In this document: positions 2,504 through 31,934 of the stretch, one piece after another | How positions within the stretch are numbered: the first letter of the stretch is position 1 | Layout: each line of letters begins with the position of its first letter | Source: a virus | Reading direction: 5' to 3' (one strand) | Length of the DNA: 64,000 nt | IMG/VR virus record: IMGVR_UViG_3300019762_000006 | Location: 25,999-89,998 of that record | Position numbers and translations under genes: made by a program | The notes under the pieces: generated by a model | The model's database searches: none | What the model was told of the DNA's origin: nothing | Seen by the model: the letters and a program-made list of their open reading frames with translations, nothing else

Positions 2504-2540
2504 TAGAGACAAAATAGAATAAAAGTAATAGGAGATAACT

Positions 2541-3062
2541 ATGACAGAAAAAGAAATGCAAGCAATACTTGCTAATCAAACAGGACGTGACGAGTATACG
2601 GATTTGGGATTTAGTAAAAACGGGCTGATAGCACCTAATAGTAGTGCATTAGCCGGACAGTTAGTCACTACGCAGCCTACAACAACTTTGGGTAATCCTG
2701 GACTATCTGGAACTGTGGGGACAGAAACAACATCCCCATTGCTACAAGAAGGTGGATATGTGCCAAATCTTAAGTTCGATGCGAATAGTAATGTGACAGG
2801 TGTGGATACTACTACAGGAATTGGGTTAAATGCCCCTGTAGGTACAGGTAACTCGGATGCATCGTGGTTCTCAGAAAATAAGGATATGCTAAGTGCTGGG
2901 TTGGGATTAGGTCAACTAGGTTTAGGTGTACTAAATTACAATGCAAATAAAAAACAGTTAGAAAGTGACTTGGCTACAGCACAACAAGCTAGACAACTAG
3001 CACTGGCAAGAGCTGCTAATAAAACTGGGATTCAAAACAAGTTCCAATCGGTATGGAGTTAA
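2541..3062 (+). CDS. Small internal virion protein (putative)
   Basis: This 173-residue protein is preceded by a TAGGAG ribosome site and ends one base before the next gene. The first 115 residues are low in charge and rich in Gly, Thr and Asn. The C-terminus has an amphipathic leucine-glycine stretch followed by an alanine/glutamine-rich helix. This resembles internal core or ejection proteins of podoviruses. Position in the late operon, two genes before vRNAP, agrees with that. No enzymatic signature is seen. Confidence 0.5.
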   Translation: MTEKEMQAILANQTGRDEYTDLGFSKNGLIAPNSSALAGQLVTTQPTTTLGNPGLSGTVGTETTSPLLQEGGYVPNLKFDANSNVTGVDTTTGIGLNAPVGTGNSDASWFSENKDMLSAGLGLGQLGLGVLNYNANKKQLESDLATAQQARQLALARAANKTGIQNKFQSVWS

Positions 3063-3063
3063 T

Positions 3064-4392
3064 ATGGCAATAGATTTAACAGGTGGTATAAGTAGCGCGT
3101 TATCTGATACCTTTAATAGGTTCAATCAAGACGACTTAAACAAGAAAGCAGAACTGGCTAAACAAGAACAGCTTAAGTATGTGAGAGATAGAAATGCTGT
3201 GCTAGATGCACAAAATAAACAGCTATTCGATATGAAAATAGCTGAAGCGAATAGGCTAAAACAACAAGACAATAGACTTGGTGAAATAATGGGTAAGCTT
3301 AGTAACACAACAGCAGAACAAGTAGTGAGTACTCCTGGAAATGCTAATGAAGTTGCTGCTCAACAAGGGCTGAACCAAAGAGTAGACCAAAGATTACAAA
3401 ACTATAAGCAGAATCAAGACAATAAATATACAGATAACTTGTTTGCTGCATTAGATGCACAAAATGAGGCTCTAATGAATGTTAAAGAAGGCATTATGTT
3501 GTCTAAACCCAAAGACCCTAGAAGTACTGGGTACACTGTAAGTCCTGTGAAAGGTACAAGTAATGAAGTGTACACTACTACTGAAGGGGAAAGACTAACA
3601 TTTGACCCTGAAAGTGCGGTTGGTAAACTGCTGTACGGAAAGAATACTGGTGGAGGATATGAACAAGTAACTCCTGTTAATGCGGTAGTTGGCGGTGAAG
3701 AGGCCAAAAAGGCTACAGCAGAGATGGAAAGAATAAAAGCTGAAGGGCCTAAATTCAACGATAAGCGTATTGAAGCAATAAACAGTAGCAGAGTAGACGT
3801 AGATAAATTAGTTAAACCCTCAAAAGAGATAAAGAATGTGAAACTTACTAAAGATGAGTGGGCCCAGAATGCATACAATATAATTGCTAGTGACCCAACA
3901 TTGTCTGGAAGTGCCAAAGCTAAAGCAATAAACTCCCTAAACACTCAAGCAGAGTTGCTATTTGGTAAAAGTAAAGAAGCTACCTATGACCAAATATTCA
4001 AGGCAAAGAAAGCTATAAAAGAAGAAGCTGATGCTAGACAGACAAGTACAGCAATTGCTAGAGACTTAAATATAAGAATACCTAATGGTATGTCAGGCAA
4101 ATCTGCGTTAGACTATGTGAAAAATACTGAGGCGTATAAGACGCTAGGAGATAAGAAAAAGTATAATAAATATGGTGCAGGGCCAGAAACTCTAAAGGCT
4201 TACGATAGTGGACTTGGTACTATAGACTCAGATGACCAAAAGAAAATTGAAAAAGCTGCGGCCAAAGCTAAGCTTACGGATAAAGATTTGGCTAGTATAA
4301 TAACAACTATGAATACTAAGGACTTAACTCCTAGATTCAGTGGTAATGTTACTGAAGATGTACTAGACTACATAAATAGAACTTCTAAATAA
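3064..4392 (+). CDS. Internal virion / ejection protein (putative)
   Basis: This 442-residue, very hydrophilic and mostly helical protein is rich in Lys, Gln, Asn and Ala. It has likely coiled-coil character in residues about 20-80 and 90-140. It starts one base after the previous stop and immediately precedes vRNAP, a place occupied in N4-like genomes by virion proteins. Such gene pairs often encode core proteins that leave the capsid with the DNA. Nothing catalytic is recognised. The function is inferred from position and composition. Confidence 0.5.
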   Translation: MAIDLTGGISSALSDTFNRFNQDDLNKKAELAKQEQLKYVRDRNAVLDAQNKQLFDMKIAEANRLKQQDNRLGEIMGKLSNTTAEQVVSTPGNANEVAAQQGLNQRVDQRLQNYKQNQDNKYTDNLFAALDAQNEALMNVKEGIMLSKPKDPRSTGYTVSPVKGTSNEVYTTTEGERLTFDPESAVGKLLYGKNTGGGYEQVTPVNAVVGGEEAKKATAEMERIKAEGPKFNDKRIEAINSSRVDVDKLVKPSKEIKNVKLTKDEWAQNAYNIIASDPTLSGSAKAKAINSLNTQAELLFGKSKEATYDQIFKAKKAIKEEADARQTSTAIARDLNIRIPNGMSGKSALDYVKNTEAYKTLGDKKKYNKYGAGPETLKAYDSGLGTIDSDDQKKIEKAAAKAKLTDKDLASIITTMNTKDLTPRFSGNVTEDVLDYINRTSK

Positions 4393-4448: not shown

Positions 4449-7400
4449 ATGCCAACTCAAGAAGAACTTCTAAACGCTGTATTCGTAAATACAAATAACA
4501 CACCAAAACAAACAAATAATTCACAATATGTATACGATGCAGATACACTATACCAAAATGGTAATGGGTACAGAGTAGAAGGGATAGATGCTCCTGAGAT
4601 GCCATCCTATGCACTAAAGCAAGAAAGAATTGCAAAGGCACTAAAAAGCAAGCTTGGAAGATTCGTTAGTAAAGCAACAGCTGGAGAAGCTGCTAAACTA
4701 GAAGCTGAACTAAGTACACTGAACTTCAATGGGATTGACTCAGGATTCCAAGAAACAAGCTTTAATGACAATCAACTACAACCTACTTACCAAGAAACTC
4801 CACAATCCGATTCAAAAGGGGTATATGGGAGAGATATACTCAATAACCCAGCATACCAAAATGAACTTGTGGCTAAAGGATATGCAATACCTGCGTTTGA
4901 TAACCAGACACCAGAAGGTCAAGCACTAATGCTAAATGCAAAGAAACAAAAGCTTGGGCTTTGGGCAGATCCGGAATATGCTGCTGAAATGGAAGCAGTG
5001 GCCAATAAAAGAGGTACTAGTACAGTAGAAGAGATACCTGAATACAATATACTAAGGGGCGTGGGTTCTGCTGGATTAGATGTAGCAGCTAAGGTTGGTG
5101 GACTGATTGGTGAAACTATTGAGTCTGCTGGTGAAGGAATTGGAGTAGATGCTGTTAAAAACAGCGGAACAGCATTGCAAAATGCCTTTACAGAGTTCCA
5201 AAGAAAACAGTATGGTAAAGAGATAACTGGGTATGTAAGTAGAAATGTAGATGAGCTTAGCGCTGAAATAGACGATACAATAAAAAAAGATGGATACATG
5301 TCTGCAATAGCTAAGGCTGTGACAGACCCAAGATCACTGGAAGTACTTGCAAATAGTGTGCCTGAAATGATAGCACTTGCGGCTAGTGTTGGAGGTATGG
5401 CTGTAGCGAATGTGAACAATAACATAAATATGGCCGAAGCTGAATTAGGTAGAAAATTAGACACAAAAGAAAAGGTGTTGAGTGCTAGTGCTAGTATAGT
5501 TGGTACGTACATGGATAGATTTGGTGACAAATTGGCACTTAGTGGGATGAATCCTACTAAAGAAGCACTAAAGACTGTGATAAATAAAATGAGCCAAGAA
5601 GGTAAAAATACACTTAGTAAGAAGTATGGTAAAGAGATACTTACAATAAGTTCTGCTCCACTTAGACTAGCTAGTGCAGGTGCTATTGAAGGATTGACTG
5701 AAAAAGGTCAAACAATGCTAGAAACTGCTGCACAAACTCCTAGAGTATTCGAGGAAGGATTTACAAAAGAAGAACTAGATGAATCCAATGTTGCTGGTGT
5801 ACTTGGGGTTACTATGGGTACACAAATGGCAAGTCCAAAAGTTGTTTATGATGTAGCTACGAAAACAGTGCCAAGTCTTCCAAAGGCTAGTAAAGATATA
5901 CTAGAACGAGCTACAGAGACAGAAGCACAACGTAAAGTAAGAGAAACTACTGAAGTAAGTGCTCCAATTAGAGAGGCTGCAATAGACAGTACACTAAAAG
6001 GTGACACAGACAGTGTGGTAAAATCAGCTGAGGAGATGCATGGTAAATTAGCTAAAGAGTTAGATGGAAGTGCTCCAAAGAAGTATACATACAATGTGGT
6101 ACTATCAAATGCACTGAATAGAGCACACGAGTCGAATGATGACACAGCAATAGCTAATGTGTACAAAACAATTGGTGATTTAAATAACCGAAAAGATGTA
6201 GACTTCAAAGCATCTGAAATGGTAGATAGTAGAATGTACGAAGCTACTAAGGAGTTTCTGGACTTAGTCAACAAAAATGACTTAACAGCAACAGATAAAA
6301 TGGAAGCAATAAACTTAGGTAAAAAGATAGGTGAGAATGCTACTGAACAAAGTGCTAGTAAAAGTAACATACTAACTGAAGTAAGATTGATGAAAGAGCA
6401 ATTGGAAAAAGAGAAAAAAAGCTTAAAGTCAGTTAAAGGCTCAGAAGACTTTGGTGGACCAATAGATAAGCTAATGAAAATAGTAGATGATTACTTAGAA
6501 AATAGAGATGCTGAAAAAGTGAATGCTCAAGTAATGGACTTAGGGTACATAGAATTGGATCCCACAAGTGGTGTACTAAAAGCAGATCCAAATAGACCTG
6601 GGTTACGTGTATATGCTAAAGAGCTAGAAAAACAGATGCTAAACCCTAACACTAATAAGAACTTACTAGATAAAAAAGTAGTTGCTAGTGGACAAGTAAC
6701 AATACCAAAGCTAGCTAAATTTGCTAAGAGTAGACTAGATAAACTAAATCCATACAAAGATAATTCTGCGTACCAAACAAGCTCATTACTAAACACACTC
6801 AAGGCCGAAAATGAACAAATGAGTAACACAATAGTAGAACTAGTGAAGATTGCTAGTAAATTAGAAATAGACAAAGAAATAAAAGATAAGTATGTAGCAA
6901 AGCTAAAAGAAGCTGGTAAAAGTGCTGTAGAAGCAAATAAAGAGATGCTAAGAAGAGAAAAGTTAATAAATGACACAACTAAACCAAGTGGAAATGGACA
7001 ACTTGCGTTCCAAGTAGACCCAGATGGTACTGAATCAATAAGACTGGTAAGTGGTGAAAGTAACACAAAAGTTGCTGATGTAGTAGATGGTAAAGTTGTG
7101 CCAATTGCACAAGAACAGAATGCGGAACAAGTTGCAGATAAACCTCTAAGTAATGCTTCAATAGTTGAAAAAGCTCCAACTAAAGAATCAATGAAAGAAG
7201 AGGGTGTAAGAAATGCTAAAAATGTGACAACTGCACCAAAGCCAAAGCAAACAGTAGTGCAATGGTTAACAGCACAACTGGATGAAATGGTTGATAACCA
7301 AAAAAAGACAATGGTAGAAGCTGCTAAAGAAATAAATGACTACTTAAGTGCACAAGGATTAGATAAAGATACAATTACTAAGTACAATGTAATACTTAGA

Positions 7401-10400
7401 AAGCTGGTAAAAGATAGAGTGGATGAAAAGAAAACTCCTCTGAATAAAGTAAGAGCTAGGGTATCAGAATTGGATACAGAACTAAGTAAGCTAGTTGAAA
7501 ACGTTGAGGATATGAATATGCTAGTACACGTAAAAGAGTACTACAAAAGAAAACTTGGTGAAGTACAAGCTGAAAGAACTACATTGAATAAGGTGCTTGA
7601 TAGAATGGAGGCAGAACTAACTAAGAGAACTGGTACAAATAGAGTAAGCAAGTTAAGAGAGCTTGCTGACAAACTAATAAAAGGTATGGTAAGAGCACTA
7701 CAAGAAGTTAAAAAAAGAATAAATCTAGTAAACGCTGAGCACGATAGATTAACATCAGAGCTAAATGAAATATCAACAATGATAAAAACAATTGAAGAAG
7801 AATACATAGGTACAGTAGAACCCGAGATAGAGACTAGACAAACATCAATAGGAGAAATAACAAGATATGAAGATAGTGCTTATGGACCTATGGTAGAGCT
7901 TGGTAACAAAAGAGTAAATGCTAGAAGAACCCTAAGTCCAACAGGTAAGGTAGTACAAAGTCCGTCAAGTGCGTTGAATGATGCAATGGAAGTACTAAAA
8001 CAGGATAAAATAGAAGAGTTGAATGCAGAATTAACAGAACTTGCTAGTGAAGGTATAACAAGCTTAGGAGCTAAAATACTAAAAAGAAACCTAGAAAACT
8101 TCCCAATAGTGTCTCCAGTACATAAAATACTTACTAGTGGGTATGATAGTGTATTCGGAAAGCTAGAAGGAAATATATTCAAAGATGCTGATAAATTACT
8201 AGAAGTGTTACCAAAAGGATTCAAAGACTTCTTTGCGTCAGACAAAGAGAATGAACAGGCACTAATAGATAACTTCCAAACAATGAGCAAGTATATAGAA
8301 AATACTAAAATTGGAGATATAAAAATTGGTTCAAATAGGATTAGTAAACATATAGATCAATTTGGATTGGTAATGAACCAAAAGCTTGGGTTTGTGCCAA
8401 TTGAAAGACAACTAATAGTTGGTGACAGAGTAAAGATTGGTGAAACAACATACTTAATAGGTAAAATAGAAGGAGATAAAGCTACTGTAACAATCCCAGG
8501 TAAGAAAGGTACAAGCACAAAGAAACTAAGTGAGTTCCAATCAGTTAGAGAGAAACAGCCTGAATCGTTTCCAGTAGATATAATAGAACTAATAGGAACT
8601 GTGAAAGATGATAAACTGGAGATAGATGAACAAACTGAAACAATACTAAAGTTCTACACAGCTAAGATGGTAACCGATACACAAGCTATGATTGGTAAAA
8701 TACTAAGCTTCGATGAATCAGAAATGGGACTGTACTTAGGTATCACAGATCCAGATGAACAGATAAAAGTCAAACAAGATGCACAAAATGGTTTGGTAAA
8801 TTCTGCAAGTGTACGGTCAGATATAGGGAATGAAGTATACCAAGCACTAGGAATAAAGTTAACAAAGAATACTCCTGAGTTTACTGAAGAATCACTAACA
8901 TCTGCGTTAGGTGTACTAGTACAAGCAATAGCAGTAGATAATGGTACAATGTCAATGGATAAGCTAACTGCAGAGAAGAATACAAACTTGATACAAGTAA
9001 ACAGAGCAGCAGTAGATAAAGCACTAGAAGTAGATGGTAGAGGTACTGAACAATTAGCAAAAGCGATGAGTAAACTACAGTACTTGAATGAAGCTAGAAA
9101 TAGACCCCTACCAAAAACTGCAAAGCCTAAGCGTAAGACTAGTAGAAATGTAATGAATACAAAAATACCTATGGATGCATTGAATAACGATAAACTGAAT
9201 GATATGGAACAAATAGCATATACAATTAGTCCTAAACTACAAATGTGGTTGGCTATGGATGAAACAGAAGCATTGAAAGCCAGAGGATACGTAGAAGTTG
9301 AGTCTGCTGGTCTGCATATAAGTGAACAAGATGCACAACAAGCCAGAAATGATAAATTGGTAAGAGAATGGGAAATACTTAAGATATTTGCTCAAGCAAC
9401 AAAGAATAAAAAGTTTTACTTAGATTGGGGTCAAACAGTAAGTGGTAGATTCACAATACTAAATGACATACAGTACCAAGAAAGTAAACTGCATAGAGAG
9501 TTTGTGGTAGCAGACAATAGCACAGAGACAATAGATGTAAATGATGCTGATTCAAGACAAATGTTGGAAGCTAGCATACTACAAGGGTTAGACATGGACC
9601 CAGATAAGTTAAGTACAGAAACAGCTAGTGCTAACTTCAATAAACTGTTCAAAGTAACAGATAAAGGAATTGAGGTAACTGAAAAAGGGGCAGTAAAAAC
9701 AGCATATGAAGCATTGAGAGCTGGTAAGGTAGATGCGGATGCAATGGCAGAAGTATTTGCTGATTCAGAGGGACATCATGGTATAAGCTCAATAGAGTTG
9801 CTAGTAGATTGGAACAAAGCAATAGTAGATGGTACTACACTAGAAACACACGCTAACTTAGAAATTGATGCGATAACAAGTGGTATGATACTAACATTAC
9901 TACAAATAGGTACAGATAAAGCAATAGAACTTGCTGAAAAAGGTGGAATATATACGGCTGATAGAGCAAAAGAACTAGAAGCATATGTAAAACATTGGTT
10001 GGGTGATGTAACATTTACTCCAGGAGCATTGATTGAAGCTGGTAAGAAACACGCATCAGCAATTGAATCTGGTACAGATAAAAAGTTGCTAAAAGGACAA
10101 GAAACTAACTTACAAAGTGATACAGTATTCAAAGACCTGTACTCAACAATTGGGGTTGGGATGATTGAAGAAGTTCAAACATATAAAGAGAGATTACTAG
10201 CAAAATCGGATAAGACTGAGTCTGAAATGAAACAACTTGCAATGTTAAATGAGATCGGAGAGTTGAACTTAAAGAATATCCGATCAATTGCAAAGAGTCC
10301 TGTAATGGTATACATATACGGAGCAACAGTAAACTCAATTAAGAAAAAGTTAACATACTCACTTGGAATAGATACACTAGTTAAGACAATAAAGAAAGCT

Positions 10401-12002
10401 AGTAAACTACTAAAAGAGGGAAAAGATGCTGGTAAAGAGTTGGGGTTTGTAGATATGTATATACCAAACAAAGTGTACAAAGATAGATTCGGTGGTAAGA
10501 TTGCAGATAATATGCCAGAGTGGAAAAAGTTGCTACACTTAGATATAGATAGTGGCACAATAAAAACAGTAGGAGATGTGATCAATGCAACATTTGGAAC
10601 AGCAATTGAAACAACATTCGATAGTAGACTAGGATTCGTAGATAGAAATAGGGATGCAGTAAAAACCCTAGAAATAATAGCGTTCGAAGCATACCAAGTA
10701 AGACTGGCCGAAGAAGTAGAAAACTTGCTAAATAGTAGATACGGGGAAGCAAAGCATGAAGGTGAGTCCTACAAAATAAGTAAAGATGACTTGGTAAACA
10801 TAAACAACAAACTGACTGCACAAGGGTATGGGCATGACATCGTATGGGATGAAGCAGGTAGAGATAGAGTAAACCAAACACTTAACAAGACTGGTACTAA
10901 AGGGGGATTACATTCAAGTAGTGTGACAGTTGGTGACACAAAAGTTGGAGGGCAGATAAAACAGAATAAAGCAATAGTAAATACAGGTGCTGCATCAACA
11001 ATACCAATCCATGCAATAGATGGTAGGATGATACTAGAAACACTAAATAGAGAATTAAAAGGTCCGCTAAAGGGTAAATACCATGGTGGGAATGTGTATG
11101 ATGCTGTAGTGCTAAGTGCTAACAAAGCAATGCTAACAGACACAGCAGACTACTACAATAAGAATATGATTGAAATAGGGTTCAGTAGATCAATAGTAGC
11201 AGACCAAATGGCCCTAGTAGAGAATATGCTAAGTACAATGAGTGACAAACAAAAAGTAAAGATGTTCAATAGATTAGGTCTAAGACCTGAAGGAGATACT
11301 AGAGAAGACTTTACAAAAGAAGTAAACAGACTTCACTTAGGAACTGGTAAAATGCTGGAGAGACTAGAATTAGCTGAAACAACGAATAAGGAAAGATTAG
11401 TAAATAGTGGTAAAGAGTACATGTCTGGACATCTGTACCAAATGGGTTCAGGAGTAGTAAATATACCTGCTAGTGAGGTAAGAGCTAAAGAGTTCCCAGC
11501 AATAACAACACTTAAAACAATGCTAGAAAATAAGATGATTGCTGATAGAAAACAAACAGCTGAGGAATTTGCTAGTAAGACAACAGGACAGCCAGACTAT
11601 GTGCTAAACTTGTATGATATAACACAGAATACACAAGTTAAGTCAAAAGCAAATATAGCACAAATGGTGAATAAAGGCGATAAGCTAAAAGTTAGTGATA
11701 ACTTAACAGAATCTCTAGGTAGCAAAGATACAGTTGAAATAGTAGGTTCAGTTGGTAGTGAGTTAAACAATAGTCAAAAGTGGTGGTTAAATAATATGAA
11801 AAATAATATACTTGCATCAGATGCTGGTATAGTAGCTAATAGCAATACATCAGAAAAGACAATGAGTGAATCAGGTAGAGAGCTAATTGAGGGTGTGTGG
11901 GTTAAACAAAAAGAAGCTAAAAACAAGCTAGAAAAAGATATAATAACTCCAAGTGAAGCATTCAAAAAGAATGTAAATAACAAGATAGAATGTAAGGAAT
12001 AG
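4449..12002 (+). CDS. Virion RNA polymerase (N4 type), with N-terminal SNase-like domain
   Basis: A 2517-residue protein. The polymerase core shows the T7/N4 single-subunit motifs: TxxGR (TVSGR, residues 1663-1667), motif A (EIDAITSG, probable catalytic D1807), motif B (R1945, K1949, Y1957, G1958 in AKSPVM..YIYG) and motif C (IHAIDG, D2191). Motif B spacing (4 and 8) and the gap between the two Asp (384) are close to those I recall for N4 vRNAP. It should be packaged in the capsid, injected with the DNA, and transcribe early genes. Residues about 26-175 look like a staphylococcal nuclease fold: D32, R42, D47, E50 and R128 fit the catalytic set. The middle (about 200-1240) is long and helical. 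The roughly 1400-residue C-terminal domain expected from N4 is absent here and is encoded by the next gene. Ile codons are overwhelmingly ATA. Confidence 0.9.
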   Translation: MPTQEELLNAVFVNTNNTPKQTNNSQYVYDADTLYQNGNGYRVEGIDAPEMPSYALKQERIAKALKSKLGRFVSKATAGEAAKLEAELSTLNFNGIDSGFQETSFNDNQLQPTYQETPQSDSKGVYGRDILNNPAYQNELVAKGYAIPAFDNQTPEGQALMLNAKKQKLGLWADPEYAAEMEAVANKRGTSTVEEIPEYNILRGVGSAGLDVAAKVGGLIGETIESAGEGIGVDAVKNSGTALQNAFTEFQRKQYGKEITGYVSRNVDELSAEIDDTIKKDGYMSAIAKAVTDPRSLEVLANSVPEMIALAASVGGMAVANVNNNINMAEAELGRKLDTKEKVLSASASIVGTYMDRFGDKLALSGMNPTKEALKTVINKMSQEGKNTLSKKYGKEILTISSAPLRLASAGAIEGLTEKGQTMLETAAQTPRVFEEGFTKEELDESNVAGVLGVTMGTQMASPKVVYDVATKTVPSLPKASKDILERATETEAQRKVRETTEVSAPIREAAIDSTLKGDTDSVVKSAEEMHGKLAKELDGSAPKKYTYNVVLSNALNRAHESNDDTAIANVYKTIGDLNNRKDVDFKASEMVDSRMYEATKEFLDLVNKNDLTATDKMEAINLGKKIGENATEQSASKSNILTEVRLMKEQLEKEKKSLKSVKGSEDFGGPIDKLMKIVDDYLENRDAEKVNAQVMDLGYIELDPTSGVLKADPNRPGLRVYAKELEKQMLNPNTNKNLLDKKVVASGQVTIPKLAKFAKSRLDKLNPYKDNSAYQTSSLLNTLKAENEQMSNTIVELVKIASKLEIDKEIKDKYVAKLKEAGKSAVEANKEMLRREKLINDTTKPSGNGQLAFQVDPDGTESIRLVSGESNTKVADVVDGKVVPIAQEQNAEQVADKPLSNASIVEKAPTKESMKEEGVRNAKNVTTAPKPKQTVVQWLTAQLDEMVDNQKKTMVEAAKEINDYLSAQGLDKDTITKYNVILRKLVKDRVDEKKTPLNKVRARVSELDTELSKLVENVEDMNMLVHVKEYYKRKLGEVQAERTTLNKVLDRMEAELTKRTGTNRVSKLRELADKLIKGMVRALQEVKKRINLVNAEHDRLTSELNEISTMIKTIEEEYIGTVEPEIETRQTSIGEITRYEDSAYGPMVELGNKRVNARRTLSPTGKVVQSPSSALNDAMEVLKQDKIEELNAELTELASEGITSLGAKILKRNLENFPIVSPVHKILTSGYDSVFGKLEGNIFKDADKLLEVLPKGFKDFFASDKENEQALIDNFQTMSKYIENTKIGDIKIGSNRISKHIDQFGLVMNQKLGFVPIERQLIVGDRVKIGETTYLIGKIEGDKATVTIPGKKGTSTKKLSEFQSVREKQPESFPVDIIELIGTVKDDKLEIDEQTETILKFYTAKMVTDTQAMIGKILSFDESEMGLYLGITDPDEQIKVKQDAQNGLVNSASVRSDIGNEVYQALGIKLTKNTPEFTEESLTSALGVLVQAIAVDNGTMSMDKLTAEKNTNLIQVNRAAVDKALEVDGRGTEQLAKAMSKLQYLNEARNRPLPKTAKPKRKTSRNVMNTKIPMDALNNDKLNDMEQIAYTISPKLQMWLAMDETEALKARGYVEVESAGLHISEQDAQQARNDKLVREWEILKIFAQATKNKKFYLDWGQTVSGRFTILNDIQYQESKLHREFVVADNSTETIDVNDADSRQMLEASILQGLDMDPDKLSTETASANFNKLFKVTDKGIEVTEKGAVKTAYEALRAGKVDADAMAEVFADSEGHHGISSIELLVDWNKAIVDGTTLETHANLEIDAITSGMILTLLQIGTDKAIELAEKGGIYTADRAKELEAYVKHWLGDVTFTPGALIEAGKKHASAIESGTDKKLLKGQETNLQSDTVFKDLYSTIGVGMIEEVQTYKERLLAKSDKTESEMKQLAMLNEIGELNLKNIRSIAKSPVMVYIYGATVNSIKKKLTYSLGIDTLVKTIKKASKLLKEGKDAGKELGFVDMYIPNKVYKDRFGGKIADNMPEWKKLLHLDIDSGTIKTVGDVINATFGTAIETTFDSRLGFVDRNRDAVKTLEIIAFEAYQVRLAEEVENLLNSRYGEAKHEGESYKISKDDLVNINNKLTAQGYGHDIVWDEAGRDRVNQTLNKTGTKGGLHSSSVTVGDTKVGGQIKQNKAIVNTGAASTIPIHAIDGRMILETLNRELKGPLKGKYHGGNVYDAVVLSANKAMLTDTADYYNKNMIEIGFSRSIVADQMALVENMLSTMSDKQKVKMFNRLGLRPEGDTREDFTKEVNRLHLGTGKMLERLELAETTNKERLVNSGKEYMSGHLYQMGSGVVNIPASEVRAKEFPAITTLKTMLENKMIADRKQTAEEFASKTTGQPDYVLNLYDITQNTQVKSKANIAQMVNKGDKLKVSDNLTESLGSKDTVEIVGSVGSELNNSQKWWLNNMKNNILASDAGIVANSNTSEKTMSESGRELIEGVWVKQKEAKNKLEKDIITPSEAFKKNVNNKIECKE

Positions 12003-12004: not shown

Positions 12005-15000
12005 ATGGGTTGTTCAGCACAAGATCAAATAGCAGGCTACAAAACAATAAATAAAAAGTTAAGAGAATTAAATCCAAATGTAGATCCAATAGGACTGCAG
12101 TTTGGTATAAACAAGTACTGGCTAGGCTTAGAAAATAATATAATGACTGATGCTGAAAAAGATGTATACAACACATTAGTAAAGCAAACAGAAGGGATAG
12201 CATTAATAAACTTAGGCGGAACTAAACAATTGCAAGAACAGTTGGTGTTCGTTAAAGACATAGGTAAAGAGTATGTAATACATTTAGAAAGTGGTAAAAA
12301 CTACACATTCGAAAAAGGTAAAGCACAAAGTAATCCAACAAGAGCTGGTAGAACAGTAATGATGCCTGCAATGGAATTGACTAAAACATATCAAAATTCT
12401 GTAAAAGGTAGTGACCAAAACACACAAATAGGAGAAACTGAAGCAGATAAATTCATAGAACAAGAAGTAATAGATCTAGGCACAACACTAACAGATAAGT
12501 TCATGGAAATGGCTGAGATGAATCAGGAAAGTTCAGGGTTAAAAGAACTAAGAAACAAAATGAAGATAATTGGTGAGTATGAAGTAAAGATAAATGAGTA
12601 CAATGCAAGAAATGAAGAAGCTCCAGCAAAGTTAATGGAAGACTACAACAAAACCTACGATGAGGCTGAAGCAATACAAGCAACACTGACAGAGTTTGAA
12701 GTACTGACATCAACTGTGTTAAATACATACCAAGTAACAATGACTAATTTAGGCACTGGTGAACTAAAGATGCAAATGTTTGAGAATGCAAATAGCCAAA
12801 CTGCGGCATCTATAGATTTGCGAACAAATGAAATGAAAGCTAGATGGAATAAAATGTCAAGAATAACAAACTTGAGTGAAGCGTTCCTACATGAGATAAA
12901 CCACAAGATGTCAAGTCACGTGTTCGATGCAAATGTACAACTAACAAGACTAATGAAAGACTTGCGAGATAGTGCAATAAATAGTGGTGTAACCTATGAA
13001 CTGTTTCTAGACAAGATTGCTGATCCAACAGAACAAGAAATAGAAATAGCAAAGATGAAGTTTAAGTATGTGTTTGACAAAACAGCAGATATAGAAGAGT
13101 TCTACGCATATGCAACAACAAATGAGCAAGTATACAATGCGATAAAAGATGTGAAGATATCAATACCGCTAATAAAAGACCTTGAAATAGACCCTAGTAA
13201 ACCAAGCTCAATAAAAAAGGTACTAAATGCACTAATAAAAACAGTAAATACAATATGGACAACGCTAAGTGGAAGAGGAAAACGTGGTGGTCAACTAGTA
13301 GCAGAAATGGTAACAACAATAGCTAAACTAGATGCAGAAATGATGCAACAAAAAATGGTAGATGAGAATGAACAGCCTGGAGTAAGTAGCTACGCAAGAG
13401 CTAAAATGAATAGCATAGATGAGCTAATAGAACCTGTGGTAAAGAAAGTGGGAGATTGGTCAGAGAAGTTAAGTGAAGCTGGACCAAAAGATGTAAGTAA
13501 GCAAATAGCCAAAATACCAGTACTAAATGAACTAATGAATACTGGAATAACCCAATACTTGTGGAGAGCGGTAACGCAAGATACAACAACAGAGGATGTG
13601 GCAGATATGTACGCAGTGTTTAGACATAGTAAGCAAGTGGTAGAGAAACATACAGCAGACATTAGAAATGGGGTTAAGTCAGTAGCAACTGAAATGTTCA
13701 AAGACACAGACAAAACAACAAAAGACGCAATAACAAAAGTAGTACTAAGTGGAGATATGGCACAGTTCACAGCAAGTGAGATACAAGAGTACCTAAATGA
13801 GCCTGCTAAAATACAAGAAGAAATAGAAAAGCTAACAAAAATAGTACATTTGGGAGCAAGTAAAGAACTAGTAAAAAGTAGGGATAAGCAAATAGATGGA
13901 CTAGCTGAGTACTTAGTAAGTGGTAAAACAGTAGCACATGATCAACAAATAAATGCAAATAATATAGCAGCAAATATGCAAATAGCGCATAGAGTGCCAA
14001 AAAGAAAGATGCCTGAAAGACCAAGTAAAGAATTAATCGATACGATAGATAAAATAGTGTCCCTAAAAGTGCTCCAAAAGTCCGATGAAGTACACACTAA
14101 AGCAATAAAAGAGTTGGTGTCTAATAAAGACGGAGTAGAATTGCTAGATAAAACAATAAATATGTATAGAGGATACATAGATAACATGAGAGCAGATGCA
14201 ACAATAGATGCACATGATCCAATACCAAAAGGATACACAAGACCAGCAGATGGACTGCTAAGATACGAGTTAATCCCTGAAGATGAAGTAAAAGCTCAGG
14301 AAAGTGTGCTAATGAGATTGGTAAATGATAAACCGTACACAATAGTAGAAGGTAAAAAATACTACTTAATGACGGGTAGAACTAAGTCAGTAGGGTTCAG
14401 TGAAGGTGCTATTGGGTTAATATCACATACAACTGAAGGTATACCCCTAAGTTCACTAATAAGAAAAAACAATGAAATGAAAGGAAATAAAGGACTAATA
14501 GATGGGGAACTAAGAGCTAAAACAAAACAGATAGTAGAAGCAATTAGAAATTCAAAAAATGGTAGAATAAATAAGTTTGCAATGATAGAAGGACAAACAC
14601 TAGTACCAGTGTACAACCACAGAAATGAGATAGTAGACTACAGAATACAGTTGAATAACCTAGAAAAAGAGATGTACTTGCCAGATAGAGAAACAGAGAT
14701 AGAAGATATACTAAGTAACACATTCAGTAGAAGTATAAAAACTTCACTAACAGCCACAGAGAACAAAAGAGTGGTAGATACAATAATAGAAAACAGTGGT
14801 AGAGGAGTACTAGAAAATCCAGATGACTACGTGCTAGTAGAAGAATATACTGAAGAAGATAAAATGAATGGTGTTAAGCGTGAAAAAAGGCATGATAGAT
14901 GGGAATACTTACCAGACCACACAAAAGACTACATATATCAAAGAACTAGCAATAAAGGTATACTAGTACACAAAGACTTCGTAGAATTAATGACTGGTGA

Positions 15001-16009
15001 AAAAGATGTGACGATTGGGAACTTTGCAAAGTTTGGGTTTGATATGAAACAACACCCTGTAGCAAAAGCTAGATTAATGGCATTGGAAGCCTATATAACT
15101 GAAATACTAAGCTATGTGAAGCAAGCAATGGTTGTGCTAAATGGGGATATACTAGTTGGTAACCAAGTGAGTAATGCAATGGTAGCAGCAAGTCACGGAA
15201 TAAACCCAGTAAAATACACTAAAAAGTTCAAACAGAGATGGCAACAATTAAATGACTACAATGAAAAAGTACAAATGTTATCAGAGTTAGAAGTTAAGCA
15301 AATGGCTGGTGAAAATGTTGGGTTAGAGATAAGACAACTGAAGAAACAGTTAGAAGGTAATATATGGGATGAATTGGTAAAAGATGGTCAATACACTGCG
15401 TTAGTGGAAGACGTAAATATAGAAGCTAAACTAGATGGACAAATTGCAACAATGGTACAACAACAAATAGATAAAAGTAACTTCAAAGGAATAATAGAAG
15501 GAGTTAGAAATGGTCTGTATATAGATAAAACAACAGCACTGTATCAAACAATGGCAAAATCAGTACACTATGGTGATGCGATAACAAGACAAATAATAAA
15601 AGAAGAATTGGAAGAAAAAGCAATAAAGAGAGAAGGAGAGTTAACAGAAGATGTAAAAAAAGATATACTAAACTACCTAGATCAGTTGCTAGTAAACTAC
15701 GGATACACAATGAACCGGTGGTGGAAGTACTCAGAGAGAGTGGGAGGGTTGTTCTTTATGCGATACTACATGGGACAAGCAAAAGCTATAATGAGTATGG
15801 CAAAAAAGAGTCCAACAAGGACAGCACTACTGCAAGGTGTGCAAAAAGTGACTGGTGTGGATATAGCAGACCCAATAGACACATATACCAATAGTGGTAT
15901 AGATGGAGTAACTTATAGGCATATGTTTACAGAAGCTCCTTACTTATTAGCAGAACCTAACATACTTGATCTTATACCCGACATGTCCGCGGCATTTGTA
16001 ATGAGGTAG
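12005..16009 (+). CDS. vRNAP C-terminal domain as separate protein; HExxH peptidase-like motif
   Basis: A 1334-residue protein that starts two bases after the vRNAP stop, in another frame, with an AAGGAA ribosome site at 11994-11999. Its size matches the C-terminal domain that is part of the single N4 polypeptide. It therefore probably rides in the particle with the polymerase and assists packaging or ejection. Residues 296-300 read HEINH inside a helix-like context, followed by DIEEFYAYATTNE near residue 362. This is the HExxH plus downstream EEF(x)AY...TN arrangement of gluzincin-like metallopeptidases found in large phage and plasmid polyproteins, with E364 or E365 as the possible third zinc ligand. 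The last codons use C-rich triplets unlike the rest of the gene (see the cassette downstream). Peptidase activity is inference. Confidence 0.75.
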   Translation: MGCSAQDQIAGYKTINKKLRELNPNVDPIGLQFGINKYWLGLENNIMTDAEKDVYNTLVKQTEGIALINLGGTKQLQEQLVFVKDIGKEYVIHLESGKNYTFEKGKAQSNPTRAGRTVMMPAMELTKTYQNSVKGSDQNTQIGETEADKFIEQEVIDLGTTLTDKFMEMAEMNQESSGLKELRNKMKIIGEYEVKINEYNARNEEAPAKLMEDYNKTYDEAEAIQATLTEFEVLTSTVLNTYQVTMTNLGTGELKMQMFENANSQTAASIDLRTNEMKARWNKMSRITNLSEAFLHEINHKMSSHVFDANVQLTRLMKDLRDSAINSGVTYELFLDKIADPTEQEIEIAKMKFKYVFDKTADIEEFYAYATTNEQVYNAIKDVKISIPLIKDLEIDPSKPSSIKKVLNALIKTVNTIWTTLSGRGKRGGQLVAEMVTTIAKLDAEMMQQKMVDENEQPGVSSYARAKMNSIDELIEPVVKKVGDWSEKLSEAGPKDVSKQIAKIPVLNELMNTGITQYLWRAVTQDTTTEDVADMYAVFRHSKQVVEKHTADIRNGVKSVATEMFKDTDKTTKDAITKVVLSGDMAQFTASEIQEYLNEPAKIQEEIEKLTKIVHLGASKELVKSRDKQIDGLAEYLVSGKTVAHDQQINANNIAANMQIAHRVPKRKMPERPSKELIDTIDKIVSLKVLQKSDEVHTKAIKELVSNKDGVELLDKTINMYRGYIDNMRADATIDAHDPIPKGYTRPADGLLRYELIPEDEVKAQESVLMRLVNDKPYTIVEGKKYYLMTGRTKSVGFSEGAIGLISHTTEGIPLSSLIRKNNEMKGNKGLIDGELRAKTKQIVEAIRNSKNGRINKFAMIEGQTLVPVYNHRNEIVDYRIQLNNLEKEMYLPDRETEIEDILSNTFSRSIKTSLTATENKRVVDTIIENSGRGVLENPDDYVLVEEYTEEDKMNGVKREKRHDRWEYLPDHTKDYIYQRTSNKGILVHKDFVELMTGEKDVTIGNFAKFGFDMKQHPVAKARLMALEAYITEILSYVKQAMVVLNGDILVGNQVSNAMVAASHGINPVKYTKKFKQRWQQLNDYNEKVQMLSELEVKQMAGENVGLEIRQLKKQLEGNIWDELVKDGQYTALVEDVNIEAKLDGQIATMVQQQIDKSNFKGIIEGVRNGLYIDKTTALYQTMAKSVHYGDAITRQIIKEELEEKAIKREGELTEDVKKDILNYLDQLLVNYGYTMNRWWKYSERVGGLFFMRYYMGQAKAIMSMAKKSPTRTALLQGVQKVTGVDIADPIDTYTNSGIDGVTYRHMFTEAPYLLAEPNILDLIPDMSAAFVMR

Positions 16010-16032
16010 TTAAGGGAAAATTAAGAAAGTTA

Positions 16033-16041
16033 TGCTATAAT
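16033..16041 (+). promoter_or_regulatory. Extended -10 host-type promoter for the RHH/endonuclease cassette
   Basis: TGCTATAAT is an exact extended -10 element of bacterial sigma70 promoters, 29 bases upstream of the RHH start codon. No good -35 box is seen, as is usual for the extended class. It gives the cassette its own promoter inside a late operon. A matching element precedes the second cassette. Confidence 0.55.
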
Positions 16042-16069
16042 TGGAGTACTAAATAAGAAAGGTGTTCCA

Positions 16070-16249
16070 ATGTACAAACAAAATAAACCAGTAAGAGTAG
16101 GTATGACAATTAAATCAGACTTACTAAAAGAAATGAAAGACTACTTAAAACAAGTAAATGAAAACAAGTCACTAAAATACGTAAGTCAGTCAGAGTTTGT
16201 AAATGAGGCAATTGCTCAGCTGTTAAATAAGGAGCTGGGAGATGCGTAG
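16070..16249 (+). CDS. Ribbon-helix-helix regulator of homing cassette 1
   Basis: A 59-residue basic protein too short for routine gene lists. The N-terminal strand (PVRVGMTIKSDL) followed by two helices (LLKEMKDYLKQVN, then SQSEFVNEAIAQLL) is the Arc/CopG/MetJ ribbon-helix-helix pattern, so it probably binds DNA as a dimer. It overlaps the endonuclease start by 8 bp, giving translational coupling. A 59-residue homologue in the same arrangement lies at 31935-32114. The likely role is repression of the cassette promoter just upstream, or guidance of the endonuclease. This role is inferred from fold and position. Confidence 0.75.
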   Translation: MYKQNKPVRVGMTIKSDLLKEMKDYLKQVNENKSLKYVSQSEFVNEAIAQLLNKELGDA

Positions 16250-17126
16250 GTTGACAACAGAAGAATGGATAGAGAAAGCTATAAAAGTTCATGGTAATAA
16301 GTATGACTATAGTAAAGTGAACTACATAACAAATAACACTAAAGTAATAGTTATTTGCCCAATACATGGAGAAATAGAACAAGTGCCACGAAGTCATCTG
16401 GCTACTGTTGGGTGCCAGAAGTGTGCTAATAAAACAAAGCTGGCTAAAGAAGAGTTTATAGAGAGGGCAATAAAAGTACACGGAGATGTATATGATTATA
16501 CTAAGACTGTTTATAAAAATACATATTCGAAAGTGCTCATAACCTGCCCAATACATGGTGACTGGGCACAACTCCCAATGGGTCATCTACAAAGTAGAGG
16601 CTGTCCTAAGTGTGCTATAGAAAGCAGAGTTGCGAAAAACTCAAAAACTACAGAGCAGTTTATAGAGGAAGCTAAGAAAGTGCATAATAGTAAGTATAAC
16701 TATACTAAAGTAGAGTACGTAAATCATAAAGAAAAAGTAATCATAATATGCCCAGAGCATGGAGAGTTTATGCAAAGTCCAAACAGTCATTTAATAGGTA
16801 AAGGATGTCCAAGCTGTGCTGTTACCGGGTTCGATAAAACTAAACCAGGACTGCTATACTACTTAAAAGTAACACTAGAAGATGGTAAAGAGTTGTATAA
16901 AATCGGGATCACCAATAGGTCTGTGAATAGAAGGTTTAATCCAACAGAGTTAAAAAAGATAAAAGTGATAAAAGTAGAAGAATTTAAGTCAGGTAAAGAT
17001 GCTTGGGATAAAGAAAGAGGGATACTAAGTAAGTATAAAGAGTACAAGTACATAGGTCCAGATGTGCTGGACTCAGGCAATACTGAATTGTTCACAGAGA
17101 ATGTAATGGCACTAAAATTGAATTGA
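16242..17126 (+). CDS. Free-standing homing endonuclease: zinc-ribbon repeats plus GIY-YIG (T5orf172/MUG113-like)
   Basis: A 294-residue protein. Three tandem modules (about residues 1-60, 65-122 and 130-190) each read YDYSK..Y......CPIHGE..Q...HL...GCPKC, a DUF723-like zinc ribbon of about 60 residues thought to bind DNA. The C-terminal 100 residues carry YYLKV...LYKIGITNRS..RRF and a downstream KERG, which matches the GIY-YIG nuclease core of the T5orf172/MUG113 group. It overlaps the RHH gene by 8 bp. Homologues occur at 32107-32988 and inside intron 2. It lies exactly at the 3' end of the vRNAP unit, next to a displaced copy of the vRNAP tail, so it has most likely homed into that gene. 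Confidence 0.8.
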   Translation: MRRLTTEEWIEKAIKVHGNKYDYSKVNYITNNTKVIVICPIHGEIEQVPRSHLATVGCQKCANKTKLAKEEFIERAIKVHGDVYDYTKTVYKNTYSKVLITCPIHGDWAQLPMGHLQSRGCPKCAIESRVAKNSKTTEQFIEEAKKVHNSKYNYTKVEYVNHKEKVIIICPEHGEFMQSPNSHLIGKGCPSCAVTGFDKTKPGLLYYLKVTLEDGKELYKIGITNRSVNRRFNPTELKKIKVIKVEEFKSGKDAWDKERGILSKYKEYKYIGPDVLDSGNTELFTENVMALKLN

Positions 17127-17161
17127 TACCAAGTCTAAATGCTGCTTTCGTCATGCGTTGA
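17123..17161 (+). pseudogene. Displaced C-terminal remnant of the vRNAP C-terminal gene
   Basis: Read in frame from 17123, these 39 bases encode LIPSLNAAFVMR and a stop. The gene ending at 16009 ends LIPDMSAAFVMR and a stop. Nine of twelve residues agree although most codons differ. The simplest reading is that the cassette at 16010-17122 inserted near the end of the vRNAP gene, supplying a recoded replacement tail and pushing the original tail downstream. Too short for certainty, but the match and its position right after the cassette are striking. Confidence 0.65.
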
Positions 17162-17227
17162 TGGGTCATTAGACTCCTCACGCCAGTACAAGAATATGAT
17201 TAATGCTACTAATGCTACTACTTCCAT
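17135..17227 (-). CDS. Small single-pass membrane protein (30 aa)
   Basis: The frame starts after a strong AGGAGG ribosome site at normal spacing. Residues 2-16 form a hydrophobic segment (VVALVALIIFLYW) followed by an acidic tail. It is the last gene of the minus-strand run and overlaps the end of the preceding membrane gene. It could be a spanin- or holin-like accessory, but nothing proves that. Confidence 0.5.
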   Translation of the reverse strand: MEVVALVALIIFLYWREESNDPSTHDESSI

Positions 17228-17379
17228 AAGGGCCTCCTCTTAAGAATGTGCCTAATAGCAGGTAAGCAAAAATAGATTACTAAACCAACGAATAGAACTA
17301 CAATAAGCTGGAATGCATAGAATCCGGCAACAATAATAAGTATACAAACAAGAGCTAGTAAGATATCTCTGAAACTCAT
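17218..17379 (-). CDS. Small membrane protein (53 aa)
   Basis: The chosen ATG overlaps the TGA of the upstream gene (ATGA) and follows a GAGG-type ribosome site. A longer frame exists but has an unnatural Cys-rich start. Two hydrophobic segments (about 6-24 and 26-42) precede a basic tail. It forms a pair with the next membrane protein upstream. A holin/antiholin role is possible but unproven. Confidence 0.5.
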   Translation of the reverse strand: MSFRDILLALVCILIIVAGFYAFQLIVVLFVGLVIYFCLPAIRHILKRRPLWK

Positions 17380-25867: not shown

Positions 25868-26959
25868 TTATTCCTTCGGTGTTCCATCAGATTCACACGC
25901 ACGAGTGCTAATAAAAATGGGCTTAAGCGGTATTCCGACTTTACTGTAAGTCTCAAACTCAATAGTTGCCCATTTATTAACAAAGCTGTGAGGGTCAATA
26001 GATGCCCAGTACTCTTTAGTTCCCTTAGGTTTAGCCTTAAAGAACTGTTCACCAACATTCAATACAAATACTGGAAGGCCGTTCTTGTCAAGTTCAAAAG
26101 AAGCAATTAAGAACTCTTTAGAAAGAACTTTCTTGTACTTAAATTGATCAGAAGATCTAATATTGTGTTTATACAACCCGTCCAAGTTCTTGATAACTGT
26201 CCCTTCTAAGTTTTCCGCCATACATTGGTTGTAATGGTTTTCAATGTCTTCATGTGAGTTACACTTAACACCAATTAAAAATCCAACATGGGGTAGTGAG
26301 GGATGTCCAATTCTTTCTAAAGCTCTATATAAAGTTTCTAACATCATTCTTCTATACTCATAATCTTCTGCAGAATCACAGATATCAAATATATTAAATG
26401 TTAATCTAGGTGACATTTTGTTAGTTTTCTTAACAGCCGATTGAATATCTTGTAAATGCTCTCCGTGAATATACAACTCACCATTAAGCTCATTAGAAGG
26501 TAATTCATCCATTAAGTCATGAATAAATGTTTCTAAATGTGGTATTGCTGGATAAACTTCTCCGCCTCTTGAATAAATAGTAAGTTTGCCATCCACTCGT
26601 TTGTAAATTGCGTTTACTCCATTAAGCTTTGGTGTACTTACACAAGGAAACTTAATATTCTTTAGTTGGTCTTGGTAAGACTTTACTTTCATAGGTAAAC
26701 TAACAGTAACTGGAGCTGCTTTGTCATATGAATAGCCAGACTTAATCTTCTTAGTCACTAATGCTTCCGCTTCTAATTGGGCTTGCTGTTCAGGTGTAGT
26801 TTCGTTTGCACGTCCAAGATTTTTCCCAGTACACTTAGTGATTTGCGTTTGCATTTTACCGCCAAGTTGTCCGTAAGTACAGATGAATGAATCTCCTTGC
26901 ACTTCGATAGACCATTGCTGAATAGCGGAAGTCTTAGTTGTTTTGTATAATGTCGTCAT
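25868..26959 (-). CDS. ATP-dependent DNA ligase with N-terminal WGR-like domain
   Basis: A 363-residue protein. Residues 1-75 resemble a WGR domain (QQWSIEVQGDSFICTYGQLG). The nucleotidyltransferase domain begins near 105 with motif I TPKLNG, where K111 would be adenylated. Position 113 is Asn instead of the usual Asp of KxDG. LNGELYIHG is motif III, and EGTVIKNL is motif IV. The C-terminal part is the OB fold. It seals nicks during replication. Its start lies inside the end of the helicase gene upstream. Confidence 0.85.
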   Translation of the reverse strand: MTTLYKTTKTSAIQQWSIEVQGDSFICTYGQLGGKMQTQITKCTGKNLGRANETTPEQQAQLEAEALVTKKIKSGYSYDKAAPVTVSLPMKVKSYQDQLKNIKFPCVSTPKLNGVNAIYKRVDGKLTIYSRGGEVYPAIPHLETFIHDLMDELPSNELNGELYIHGEHLQDIQSAVKKTNKMSPRLTFNIFDICDSAEDYEYRRMMLETLYRALERIGHPSLPHVGFLIGVKCNSHEDIENHYNQCMAENLEGTVIKNLDGLYKHNIRSSDQFKYKKVLSKEFLIASFELDKNGLPVFVLNVGEQFFKAKPKGTKEYWASIDPHSFVNKWATIEFETYSKVGIPLKPIFISTRACESDGTPKE

Positions 26960-28418
26960 ATAGTTCCTTTAAATAATTTGCATTTATTAGTTTATGTCTA
27001 TGCCTTGTGATTGAGACAAAGTATAAACATAACTCAGCTCTACGGTCTTCTTCAGTACCTTTAAAACTCTTTGATAATGCGTCTTTAACTGCTTTATCCA
27101 TATCTGGGTCAAGTTCGATAATATCCCGAGTGGATCCCTTAGAGGTATGGGCAGTCATAAGTTGTAAATCACAAGGTGTCTTTTGATGCTCTTCTGCACT
27201 TTCAGATGCTGCAATAATATCTTCTTTACCAAACTTAAACATAAGTTGGATAGAAGAATATGTAGCTGTGTCTAAATTATCCAAGTTCAATAGGTAGTTG
27301 TATAATCCAATGCGTTCCCTAGTTGATTGGGGTAATCTACCATAGGAATCAACCATCTCCTGGAATGGCTTAAGTTCTGGATTCTTCTGTGCGAACCCTG
27401 GTTTAGCATAAATAACAGCCAATGGTAATTGAAACATATGCTTAAGCTTAAGTTTGCTAGACAGATGGTAAGGTGTTCCACATTTGTTAAGTTCAATCAT
27501 CTTTGCAATTAGTGAAGCATTAGTACGAGTTAAATAAGCTTTAGTAACTGGTTTGACATCTTCTGGATAAACCATACCTTCAAATATTGCATCAGATTCC
27601 AAATGCTTACGTAAGAATGCTTGAATAGCTGGAGCATAAGATTGGTCAACTCTAAAAGATTGCGATAAATGAAGCACTTTGGCTTCTGGGAATCTTGAGA
27701 ATCCATCAATAAGCTTCATAAAGCTAAATATACGCTGATTCTGGTCTCCAACTAATACTTTCTGAGTTGCTGGAATTGCTTGTATAATGTCCAATGCCAT
27801 CGCTGACATATCCTGAGCTTCGTCAATAAGTAATCTATCTACTGGTTTAAGTTTAATAGTACCACGCATAACTAGTATGTGAAATAGCTTAAGATAAAAT
27901 GAATGGGTAATAGCCATCTTACCAGTTGCCATCAGATTAAGAATTTGCTTAACTGCTGGAATTAGGTTGAACTGAAATGAGTCATCCTCAATAGATACTA
28001 CATAAGAGTCTACATTGAGAAATCCTGACAAACAATACTCGTCAATAATTCTGAGAATTTCTGGGTCTTTACCAAAAGGCCTACGAACAGTCTTTGGTAT
28101 GTCCATCCAAGTTAGGTACTTTTTAAGAGTTCCTAAATTGTAAGCTCCTCCTACTGTGTATGAATAAGCAAATGAATGCAAAGTTGAAACAGTTGCGTTA
28201 GTTGAAAAGGCTTGCTTAGCTTCTTTAGAAGCCATGTTACCAAACACCAAATAACGTACAGAAGCTTTGGGTTCTATTCGTTTGTAACGTGCTATTGCTT
28301 CAGTAAGGCTTGTAGTCTTTGAAGCACCTGCTGTAGCTCGGATTGCTAGTTCAGAGTTAGTTGGGTTTGCAATCTCTTCAAAGATTTCTAATTGTTGGTC
28401 AGACCAAGTAAATGACAT
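26934..28418 (-). CDS. UvrD/Rep-like superfamily 1 DNA helicase
   Basis: The chosen ATG has a good AAAGGA site; a longer in-frame start lies in the previous gene. 494 residues. Walker A is ATAGASKTTS (Ser in place of the last Gly). Walker B is LLIDEAQD, motif III GDQNQRIFSF, and motif V/VI region MTAHTSKGS and ITRHRH. A 3'-5' or 5'-3' unwinding role in replication or recombination is likely. It overlaps both neighbours, ligase included. Confidence 0.85.
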   Translation of the reverse strand: MSFTWSDQQLEIFEEIANPTNSELAIRATAGASKTTSLTEAIARYKRIEPKASVRYLVFGNMASKEAKQAFSTNATVSTLHSFAYSYTVGGAYNLGTLKKYLTWMDIPKTVRRPFGKDPEILRIIDEYCLSGFLNVDSYVVSIEDDSFQFNLIPAVKQILNLMATGKMAITHSFYLKLFHILVMRGTIKLKPVDRLLIDEAQDMSAMALDIIQAIPATQKVLVGDQNQRIFSFMKLIDGFSRFPEAKVLHLSQSFRVDQSYAPAIQAFLRKHLESDAIFEGMVYPEDVKPVTKAYLTRTNASLIAKMIELNKCGTPYHLSSKLKLKHMFQLPLAVIYAKPGFAQKNPELKPFQEMVDSYGRLPQSTRERIGLYNYLLNLDNLDTATYSSIQLMFKFGKEDIIAASESAEEHQKTPCDLQLMTAHTSKGSTRDIIELDPDMDKAVKDALSKSFKGTEEDRRAELCLYFVSITRHRHKLINANYLKELYDDIIQNN

Positions 28419-28741
28419 TGGAGTTCCTTTGGTGATTTGTGAGTACTTACTTTCCATAGAAAGAGGTCTCTATTAAAAACAGGTAAAAATTCTGTATGAA
28501 TCCACTCAATAAGTTCTGGTGTAACTTTAGTGTTAGCTGTATTATGCCACTTAAAATGTGTTGGGCGTTTGCCACCTCTACTAATACCTCTAATAGATTG
28601 CAGAGGATGAACATGTACAGATGGTATATTTTCAGGCCAAAAGAGTTCAATATAAGGAATAGTATTCTGGTCAAACACATTAAAAGTATATTTATTAAAT
28701 GCCTGTTGCGTAAAAGGGTGTTTATCTGTAGTTAGAGTCAT
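28388..28741 (-). CDS. Hypothetical protein (117 aa)
   Basis: A soluble protein with His- and Trp-rich patches (HVHPLQSIRG, HFKWHNTANT). Ribosome site AAGGAACTTAT. Its end overlaps the helicase start. It is the first gene after a 328-base noncoding stretch. No family recognised. Confidence 0.6.
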   Translation of the reverse strand: MTLTTDKHPFTQQAFNKYTFNVFDQNTIPYIELFWPENIPSVHVHPLQSIRGISRGGKRPTHFKWHNTANTKVTPELIEWIHTEFLPVFNRDLFLWKVSTHKSPKELQCHLLGLTNN

Positions 28742-31860: not shown

Positions 31861-31895
31861 AATAAATTCCTTTTAAGTTAAAATTAATGTTAATG

Positions 31896-31904: not shown

Positions 31905-31934
31905 TAGTGTAATAAAATACACAAAGGATAACAC

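Follow-up and report, generated by a model that had tools for sequence, protein, structure and literature searches.

The DNA analysed here is a stretch of 64,000 nucleotides (hereafter the window) from an N4-like phage, covering positions 25,999 to 89,998 of the 89,998-base IMG/VR virus record IMGVR_UViG_3300019762_000006. Its subject is a 1.1-kb cassette, composed of an extended -10 promoter, a ribbon-helix-helix (RHH) protein and a T5orf172/DUF723 homing endonuclease, that follows the gene of the virion RNA polymerase (vRNAP) and has a version of the last codons of that gene on either side. The plus-strand open reading frame (ORF) ahead of the cassette, 12005-16009, encodes 1334 amino acids; tblastn matched it to the vRNAPs of N4-like phages, and it aligns with PHROG 2206 (E=3.5e-69, model positions 2269-3378 of 3406). 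The vRNAP, one giant protein in N4-like phages, is here divided between two ORFs in different frames, 4449-12002, which covers PHROG 2206 positions 1062-2033, and 12005-16009. As far as sequences can tell, the split is conserved and is no sequencing error, since the relative L002 has the same ORF start (MGCSAQDQ). An earlier note, made from the DNA letters of the window, had named vRNAP as the target of the cassette. This assignment holds with the refinement that the target is the C-terminal half of a two-ORF vRNAP.

The reading frame of the vRNAP ORF is intact and terminates with DLIPDMSAAFVMR and a TAG stop codon. Beyond the cassette, positions 17123-17161 (codons TTG ATA CCA AGT CTA AAT GCT GCT TTC GTC ATG CGT TGA) encode LIPSLNAAFVMR followed by a stop codon. 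Comparison of the two tails showed that 9 of 12 residues are identical, with the stop at the equivalent place. The resemblance reaches one residue further back, to D/E-LIP at 17120, where the gene has Asp and the downstream copy Glu. At the DNA level only 21 of the 39 nucleotides are the same. Among the shared codons able to vary (L, I, P, A, A, F, V, R and the stop), 8/9 differ and only ATA is the same, confirming the claim of the earlier note that the gene end and the 39 bases after the cassette encode nearly the same tail with most codons different. When all 2661 13-residue pre-stop tails in the window were scored, the downstream copy reached 48 and the next best 14. The resemblance is therefore not due to chance.

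The two copies differ in how well their codons fit the gene. The last 16 codons of the vRNAP ORF form its most anomalous 16-codon window (0 of 1318 windows as low), and the codons CTT (twice), CCC, TCC, GCG and AGG are rare in the ORF, each supplying 1-9% of its synonyms; the final codons are indeed C-rich and unlike the gene, as the earlier note had remarked. The anomaly sets in near 15965, a few codons ahead of LIP, and this onset marks the left edge of the replaced segment, so that the putative foreign 3' end, LDLIPDMSAAFVMR plus stop, occupies 15965-16009 (+). In the downstream copy, the LIPSLNAAF codons are ordinary for the vRNAP ORF (P=0.60); only the last three codons are odd, and these are overlapped by an antisense ORF. 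This copy, ELIPSLNAAFVMR plus stop at 17120-17161 (+), is the putative displaced original. The endonuclease gene takes its stop codon (17124-17126) from the start of the displaced tail, read in a different frame, and the cassette has its right edge at ~17118.

The DNA beyond the downstream copy is shared with relatives. The antisense ORF at 17135-17227 (-), MEVVALVALIIFLYWREESNDPSTHDESSI, encodes 30 residues, is conserved, and overlaps the downstream tail by 27 nt. Its relatives lie directly past the vRNAP end in the cassette-free L002 and past the cassette in L001, a relative with a cassette at the same site after vRNAP. The vRNAP of L002, only ~63% identical to that of the window, runs straight into the downstream flank, and the DNA alignment of the flank with L002 extends into the downstream tail itself. 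Because the codons are anomalous in the upstream copy, the flank around the downstream copy is native and L002 runs into that flank, the downstream copy looks like the original end of vRNAP, displaced by the cassette. As a separate observation, this tiny ORF (MEVVALVALIIFLYWREE...) likely encodes a membrane helix, occurs after vRNAP in each of the three relatives compared, and falls below the length cut-offs of ordinary annotation.

The cassette opens with a leader at 16010-16069 (+) that contains an extended -10 promoter sequence, TGcTATAAT (16033-16041). A promoter function is predicted for this leader, whose motif is common to sister cassettes. The leader is followed by a small RHH protein of 59 residues (16070-16249, +; Pfam RHH_3, below the curated cut-off), a candidate regulator of the endonuclease. 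The endonuclease itself (16242-17126, +; 294 residues) has three DUF723/CapR zinc-finger repeats and a C-terminal T5orf172 (GIY-YIG-like) domain. Its Pfam matches are all above the curated cut-offs (DUF723 4.6e-10, CapR 1.2e-8, DUF4379 1.9e-6, T5orf172 2.7e-4), and it corresponds to the PHROG 681 endonuclease (9.6e-71). The nuclease residues Y206/Y207, YKIGIT, R231 and E258 are intact and invariant across five aligned relatives. Structure prediction gave locally confident domains (pLDDT 83, pTM 0.36).

Five such RHH-plus-endonuclease cassettes were identified, two in the window and one each in L001, in G003 (IMG/VR 3300005512_000005; contigs L009/L115) and in G011. RHH copies 54-85% identical precede three related endonucleases, and a fifth, more diverged copy is present in G011. 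The leader sequence AAAATTAA is common to all five cassettes and, partly by inspection, TGnTATAAT or TGnTAAAAT was found in four of them: the combination with TGnTATAAT also precedes the second window cassette, the L001 version reads TGcTAAAAT, and the motif is present in L009. The second window cassette (31872-32988, +) consists of a leader, an RHH gene (31935-32114) and an endonuclease gene (32107-32988), with identities to the first copy of 58% for the RHH protein and 52% for the endonuclease. A Sak4-like gene (32983-33720, -; PHROG 124) runs towards it, so that the two converge at the 3' end of that gene. No displaced tail was found at this cassette (31872-32988), and the annealing-gene target there ends with VDL and a stop codon, like the cassette-free gene of G003. 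An inverted repeat, GTAGAC...GTCTAC, at 32950-33000 lies at the junction between the second cassette and the Sak4-like gene and spans both stop codons.

A second, independent case of a replaced gene end is provided by the sister cassette of G003, which lies in the opposite orientation and faces the 3' end of the DNA polymerase gene (RHH 54% and endonuclease 52% identical to those of the window cassette). The polymerase tail in use reads ADLACLKNILTKLT followed by a stop codon. Past the cassette, the polymerase strand carries TTTAGCTGCTATTGAAGCTAAACTAGCAACTTTAAAGG (frame LAAIEAKLATLK), which extends to a TGA sharing bases with the start codon (ATG) of the small ORF that follows. A second displaced copy of the polymerase tail, DLATIEAKLATLKD plus stop, forms the end of this small ORF. 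Among ~45,000 G003 positions, the two displaced tails are the two best matches to the cassette-free polymerase tail of the window (28/38 and 29/38), whereas the tail in use scores only 18/38. In cassette-free relatives the polymerase tail in place, in each case followed by a stop codon, is DLATIEAKLATLAE (L138, 74% identical), DLPTIVNKLATLKD (L136), DIATIQAKLATLN (L132) and DLQTIQEKLSTLKE (L135 and L137). Judged by these in-place tails, the displaced stretches of G003 are the native polymerase tails and the tail in use is a substitute. The case was recognized by DNA comparison with the cassette-free relatives; a family-wide scan for tails had missed G003. No codon anomaly was found in the G003 polymerase tail in use or in the vRNAP tail of L001, and codon anomaly is therefore not a general marker of replaced tails. 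The native tail copies (L115 1870-2205, -) are 35/38 identical and flank an ORF of 93 residues, the second being fused in frame to the end of that ORF. These two old tails around a small ORF may be the record of an earlier round of tail displacement.

These observations suggest that a free-standing homing cassette arrived beside the vRNAP gene and replaced the 3' end of that gene, a reading to which we assign a probability of about 0.77. Replacement of the vRNAP tail and displacement of the original, as claimed in the earlier note, are well supported by the codon anomaly, the native flank, L002 and the independent polymerase case of G003. Also in favour of homing, the family of the nuclease consists of phage homing endonucleases, and a related endonuclease of the window adjoins a group I intron. 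In the proposed mechanism, an allele without the cassette would be cut by the endonuclease among the final codons of the target gene, and repair of the break would copy in both the cassette and the 3' end as it stands in the donor. Joining of the second end close to or at the cut site would leave the severed 3' end of the recipient beyond the cassette. The expected product is an intact chimeric vRNAP gene with a foreign tail that has nearly the same residues and has lost the cleavage sequence; after it come the cassette and the old tail, now an untranslated fossil. We infer the cleavage, the cleavage site, the resistance of the new tail and the repair route from the arrangement of the locus.

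The earlier note had further supposed that the element carries a recoded copy of the end of its target. A foreign tail with changed codons is present, and the low DNA identity of the two tails (21/39 nt in common) is compatible with the predicted resistance of the new tail to the endonuclease of the element. However, the tail lies outside the cassette core and recoding is not needed to explain it. Between independent alleles a chance codon agreement of ~3-4/8 is expected, and agreement at no more than one codon has P = 0.03-0.09, depending on the codon table used; with the codon use of the vRNAP gene the values are ~4/8 and P = 0.03. Thus, active recoding is not required and a diverged donor allele is enough, although a recoded, cut-resistant tail is plausible. 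In both cases the substitute tail occupies the side of the cassette core that faces the target gene, the 5' side at vRNAP and the 3' side at the DNA polymerase, indicating that it is not a fixed part of the core. Co-conversion of a donor allele accounts for this position better than a module carried by the element would.

Several results weigh against the replacement of the vRNAP tail by homing. The expectation that cassette-free relatives would continue directly into the downstream copy was borne out, as far as the available sequences reach, by the vRNAP of L002, which runs into the downstream flank. The tail of this distant relative, DLIPDISSIVRFN, is slightly nearer to the upstream copy in amino acids (6/13 vs 3/13 for the downstream copy), the two being equal at the DNA level. 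L001 has the cassette, yet neither a tail remnant nor anomalous tail codons were found in it. Scans of viral contigs for a close cassette-free relative of the window vRNAP gave only L001 and L002, and the genome collection gave none. No donor of the upstream tail was found either; a degenerate DNA search for LIPxxxAAFVMR returned only an unrelated antisense match. A scan for tail duplications around 92 endonuclease genes of the family yielded one clear case and no other convincing one; its remaining high scorers, which proved to be AT-rich frames or the C-termini of endonucleases in tandem, were rejected. In KP13-27, the family member that follows the primase gene is plainly intergenic and has left the end of that gene untouched. 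In sum, two cases are strong, the vRNAP locus of the window and, independent of it, the polymerase locus of the relative G003.

The polarity of the exchange could also be the reverse, with the upstream tail being the original and the downstream copy having arrived from another phage on the far end of the cassette. The tails of L002 and L001 would agree with this, since they have D-[MIL]-S/G after LIP, as in the upstream copy; the motif AAFVMR, present in both window tails, occurs in neither relative. However, it is the upstream and not the downstream copy that has anomalous codons; the conserved antisense ORF extends into the downstream copy, which can be aligned with native flank; and the far-side copy in G003 is clearly the native tail. 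A reversed polarity is therefore considered unlikely. Tandem duplication of the gene end, with later insertion of the cassette between the copies and divergence in place, has a parallel in G003, in which two copies of the polymerase tail (35/38) around a small ORF show that tail duplication occurs without an intervening endonuclease. Divergence in place should have decayed the unused copy, yet the strange codons are in the copy in use, and 9/12 residues are retained despite changes in 8/9 variable codons. The equal outcome at an unrelated gene also makes a coincidence of duplication and insertion improbable, and local duplication is rated as quite unlikely.

If the cassette were an intron, the downstream tail would be a second exon that provides an alternative C-terminus upon splicing. 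A related endonuclease elsewhere in the window does adjoin a group I intron. At vRNAP, however, no Rfam match was obtained in 15850-17300, even at E up to 5, only 60 nt of non-coding cassette sequence precede the RHH gene, too short a stretch to hold the core of a group I or II intron, and the upstream tail has its own stop at the homologous position. This explanation is very improbable. The candidate of a group I or II intron-encoded endonuclease was rejected for want of catalytic intron RNA by Rfam in 15850-17300, and an intein was rejected because of the stop codons. Chance resemblance of a random downstream stretch would be favoured by the short length of the tail and by nothing else; given the gap between the scores of 48 and 14 and a stop codon in register, its probability is close to negligible. 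The replacement of the vRNAP end by homing is thus preferred over these explanations.

Other endonuclease insertions were observed in the window and its relatives. In the window, a group I intron (59398-59691), accompanied by a related DUF723 endonuclease (58429-59295), interrupts a MoxR-like ATPase gene (57388-59967, -). The MoxR-like ATPase gene of G011 is intact, with an RHH-endonuclease cassette just upstream. The DNA polymerase gene of the window (39037-42886, -) contains an insertion that splits it and carries an AP2-type HNH endonuclease (41519-42304). Its second exon resumes at LFDLKFIKYHTG, ahead of the annotated start, and no intron RNA was found in this insertion at the Rfam threshold. 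In G003, a helicase gene (L113 606-3269, -; homologue of window 26934-28457) is split near Walker A by a DUF723 endonuclease (2048-3022). A shorter endonuclease of the family, ~230 residues with two zinc-finger repeats and one in-frame TGA, is encoded at G002:C1:37930-38613 and is possibly decaying.

Similar arrangements have been described in yeast and in fungal mitochondria. Homing of the yeast WHO elements of Torulaspora and Lachancea swaps the 3' end of FBA1 for a resistant allele (Coughlan et al. 2020, PMC7282813), and the old 3' end of the recipient is left beyond the endonuclease gene, so that repeated rounds lead to strings of 3' fragments (PMC7282813). The phage cassettes resemble WHO elements in being splicing-free, in lying downstream of an essential gene in both orientations and in recognizing DNA by zinc fingers. 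They differ in that WHO elements have LAGLIDADG, intein-derived endonucleases, reside in yeast nuclei and leave fragments of ~400 bp, whereas the cassettes combine T5orf172 with an RHH partner and tails of ~45 bp in a phage. Cleavage has been demonstrated for WHO (PMC7282813), whereas for the phage cassette it is proposed. Membership in the WHO family proper was rejected, as the domains are T5orf172 and DUF723 instead of LAGLIDADG-zinc finger and the target is vRNAP instead of FBA1, although the elements appear to work alike. In fungal mitochondria, mORFs (Allomyces atp6; Glomus atp6/atp9/cox2/nad3) enter a gene at its C-terminal end and bring a foreign C-terminal segment with them (Beaudet et al. 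2013, PMC3630166); the native segment lies downstream, and the residues are kept while the DNA differs at silent sites (64-81% vs 91-98%) (PMC3630166). The likeness to the vRNAP locus comprises a foreign gene end upstream, the native end beyond the endonuclease ORF and a nearly identical protein despite silent divergence. However, mORFs are mitochondrial, mostly LAGLIDADG (one GIY-YIG) and sometimes in frame with the gene, whereas the phage cassette has its own predicted promoter and an RHH gene.

Among phage elements, the T5orf172 endonucleases with CapR/DUF723 of a study of ICP1 (PMC10448857) belong to the same family with the same domain order, adjoin essential genes and are free-standing or intron-linked. 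The sections of that study considered here describe exchange boundaries but no replaced 3' end with a displaced original. The T4 seg/mob endonucleases (Edgell et al. 2010, PMC2988022) are likewise free-standing beside essential genes and accompanied by co-conversion of flanks. However, their cleavage sites are hundreds to thousands of bp from the endonuclease gene, and a retained fossil of a gene end is not described in the portions of that paper drawn on here (PMC2988022). No phage precedent for homing that replaces a 3' end was found in the open-licence literature. This mode of homing, known from fungi and yeast, is apparently new for phages.

If the reading is correct, phages would use a 3'-end-replacing homing that was thought to be peculiar to fungal mitochondria and the yeast WHO/HO family, and the mechanism would be testable by simple phage crosses. 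A broader proposition, for and against which we see the odds as evenly balanced, is that N4-like phages host a distinct class of RHH-controlled, splicing-free cassettes at the 3' ends of essential replication and transcription genes. Such cassettes would sit in either orientation, swap in an uncuttable donor tail and leave strings of fossil tails. The WHO/mORF life style would then have arisen independently for a third time, with immunity determined by the gene end. Replacement by homing would also explain abrupt sequence changes at the ends of essential phage genes. The genomic signature of an odd-codon tail, a cassette and an old tail would then provide a means to find such elements and to infer their cleavage sites.

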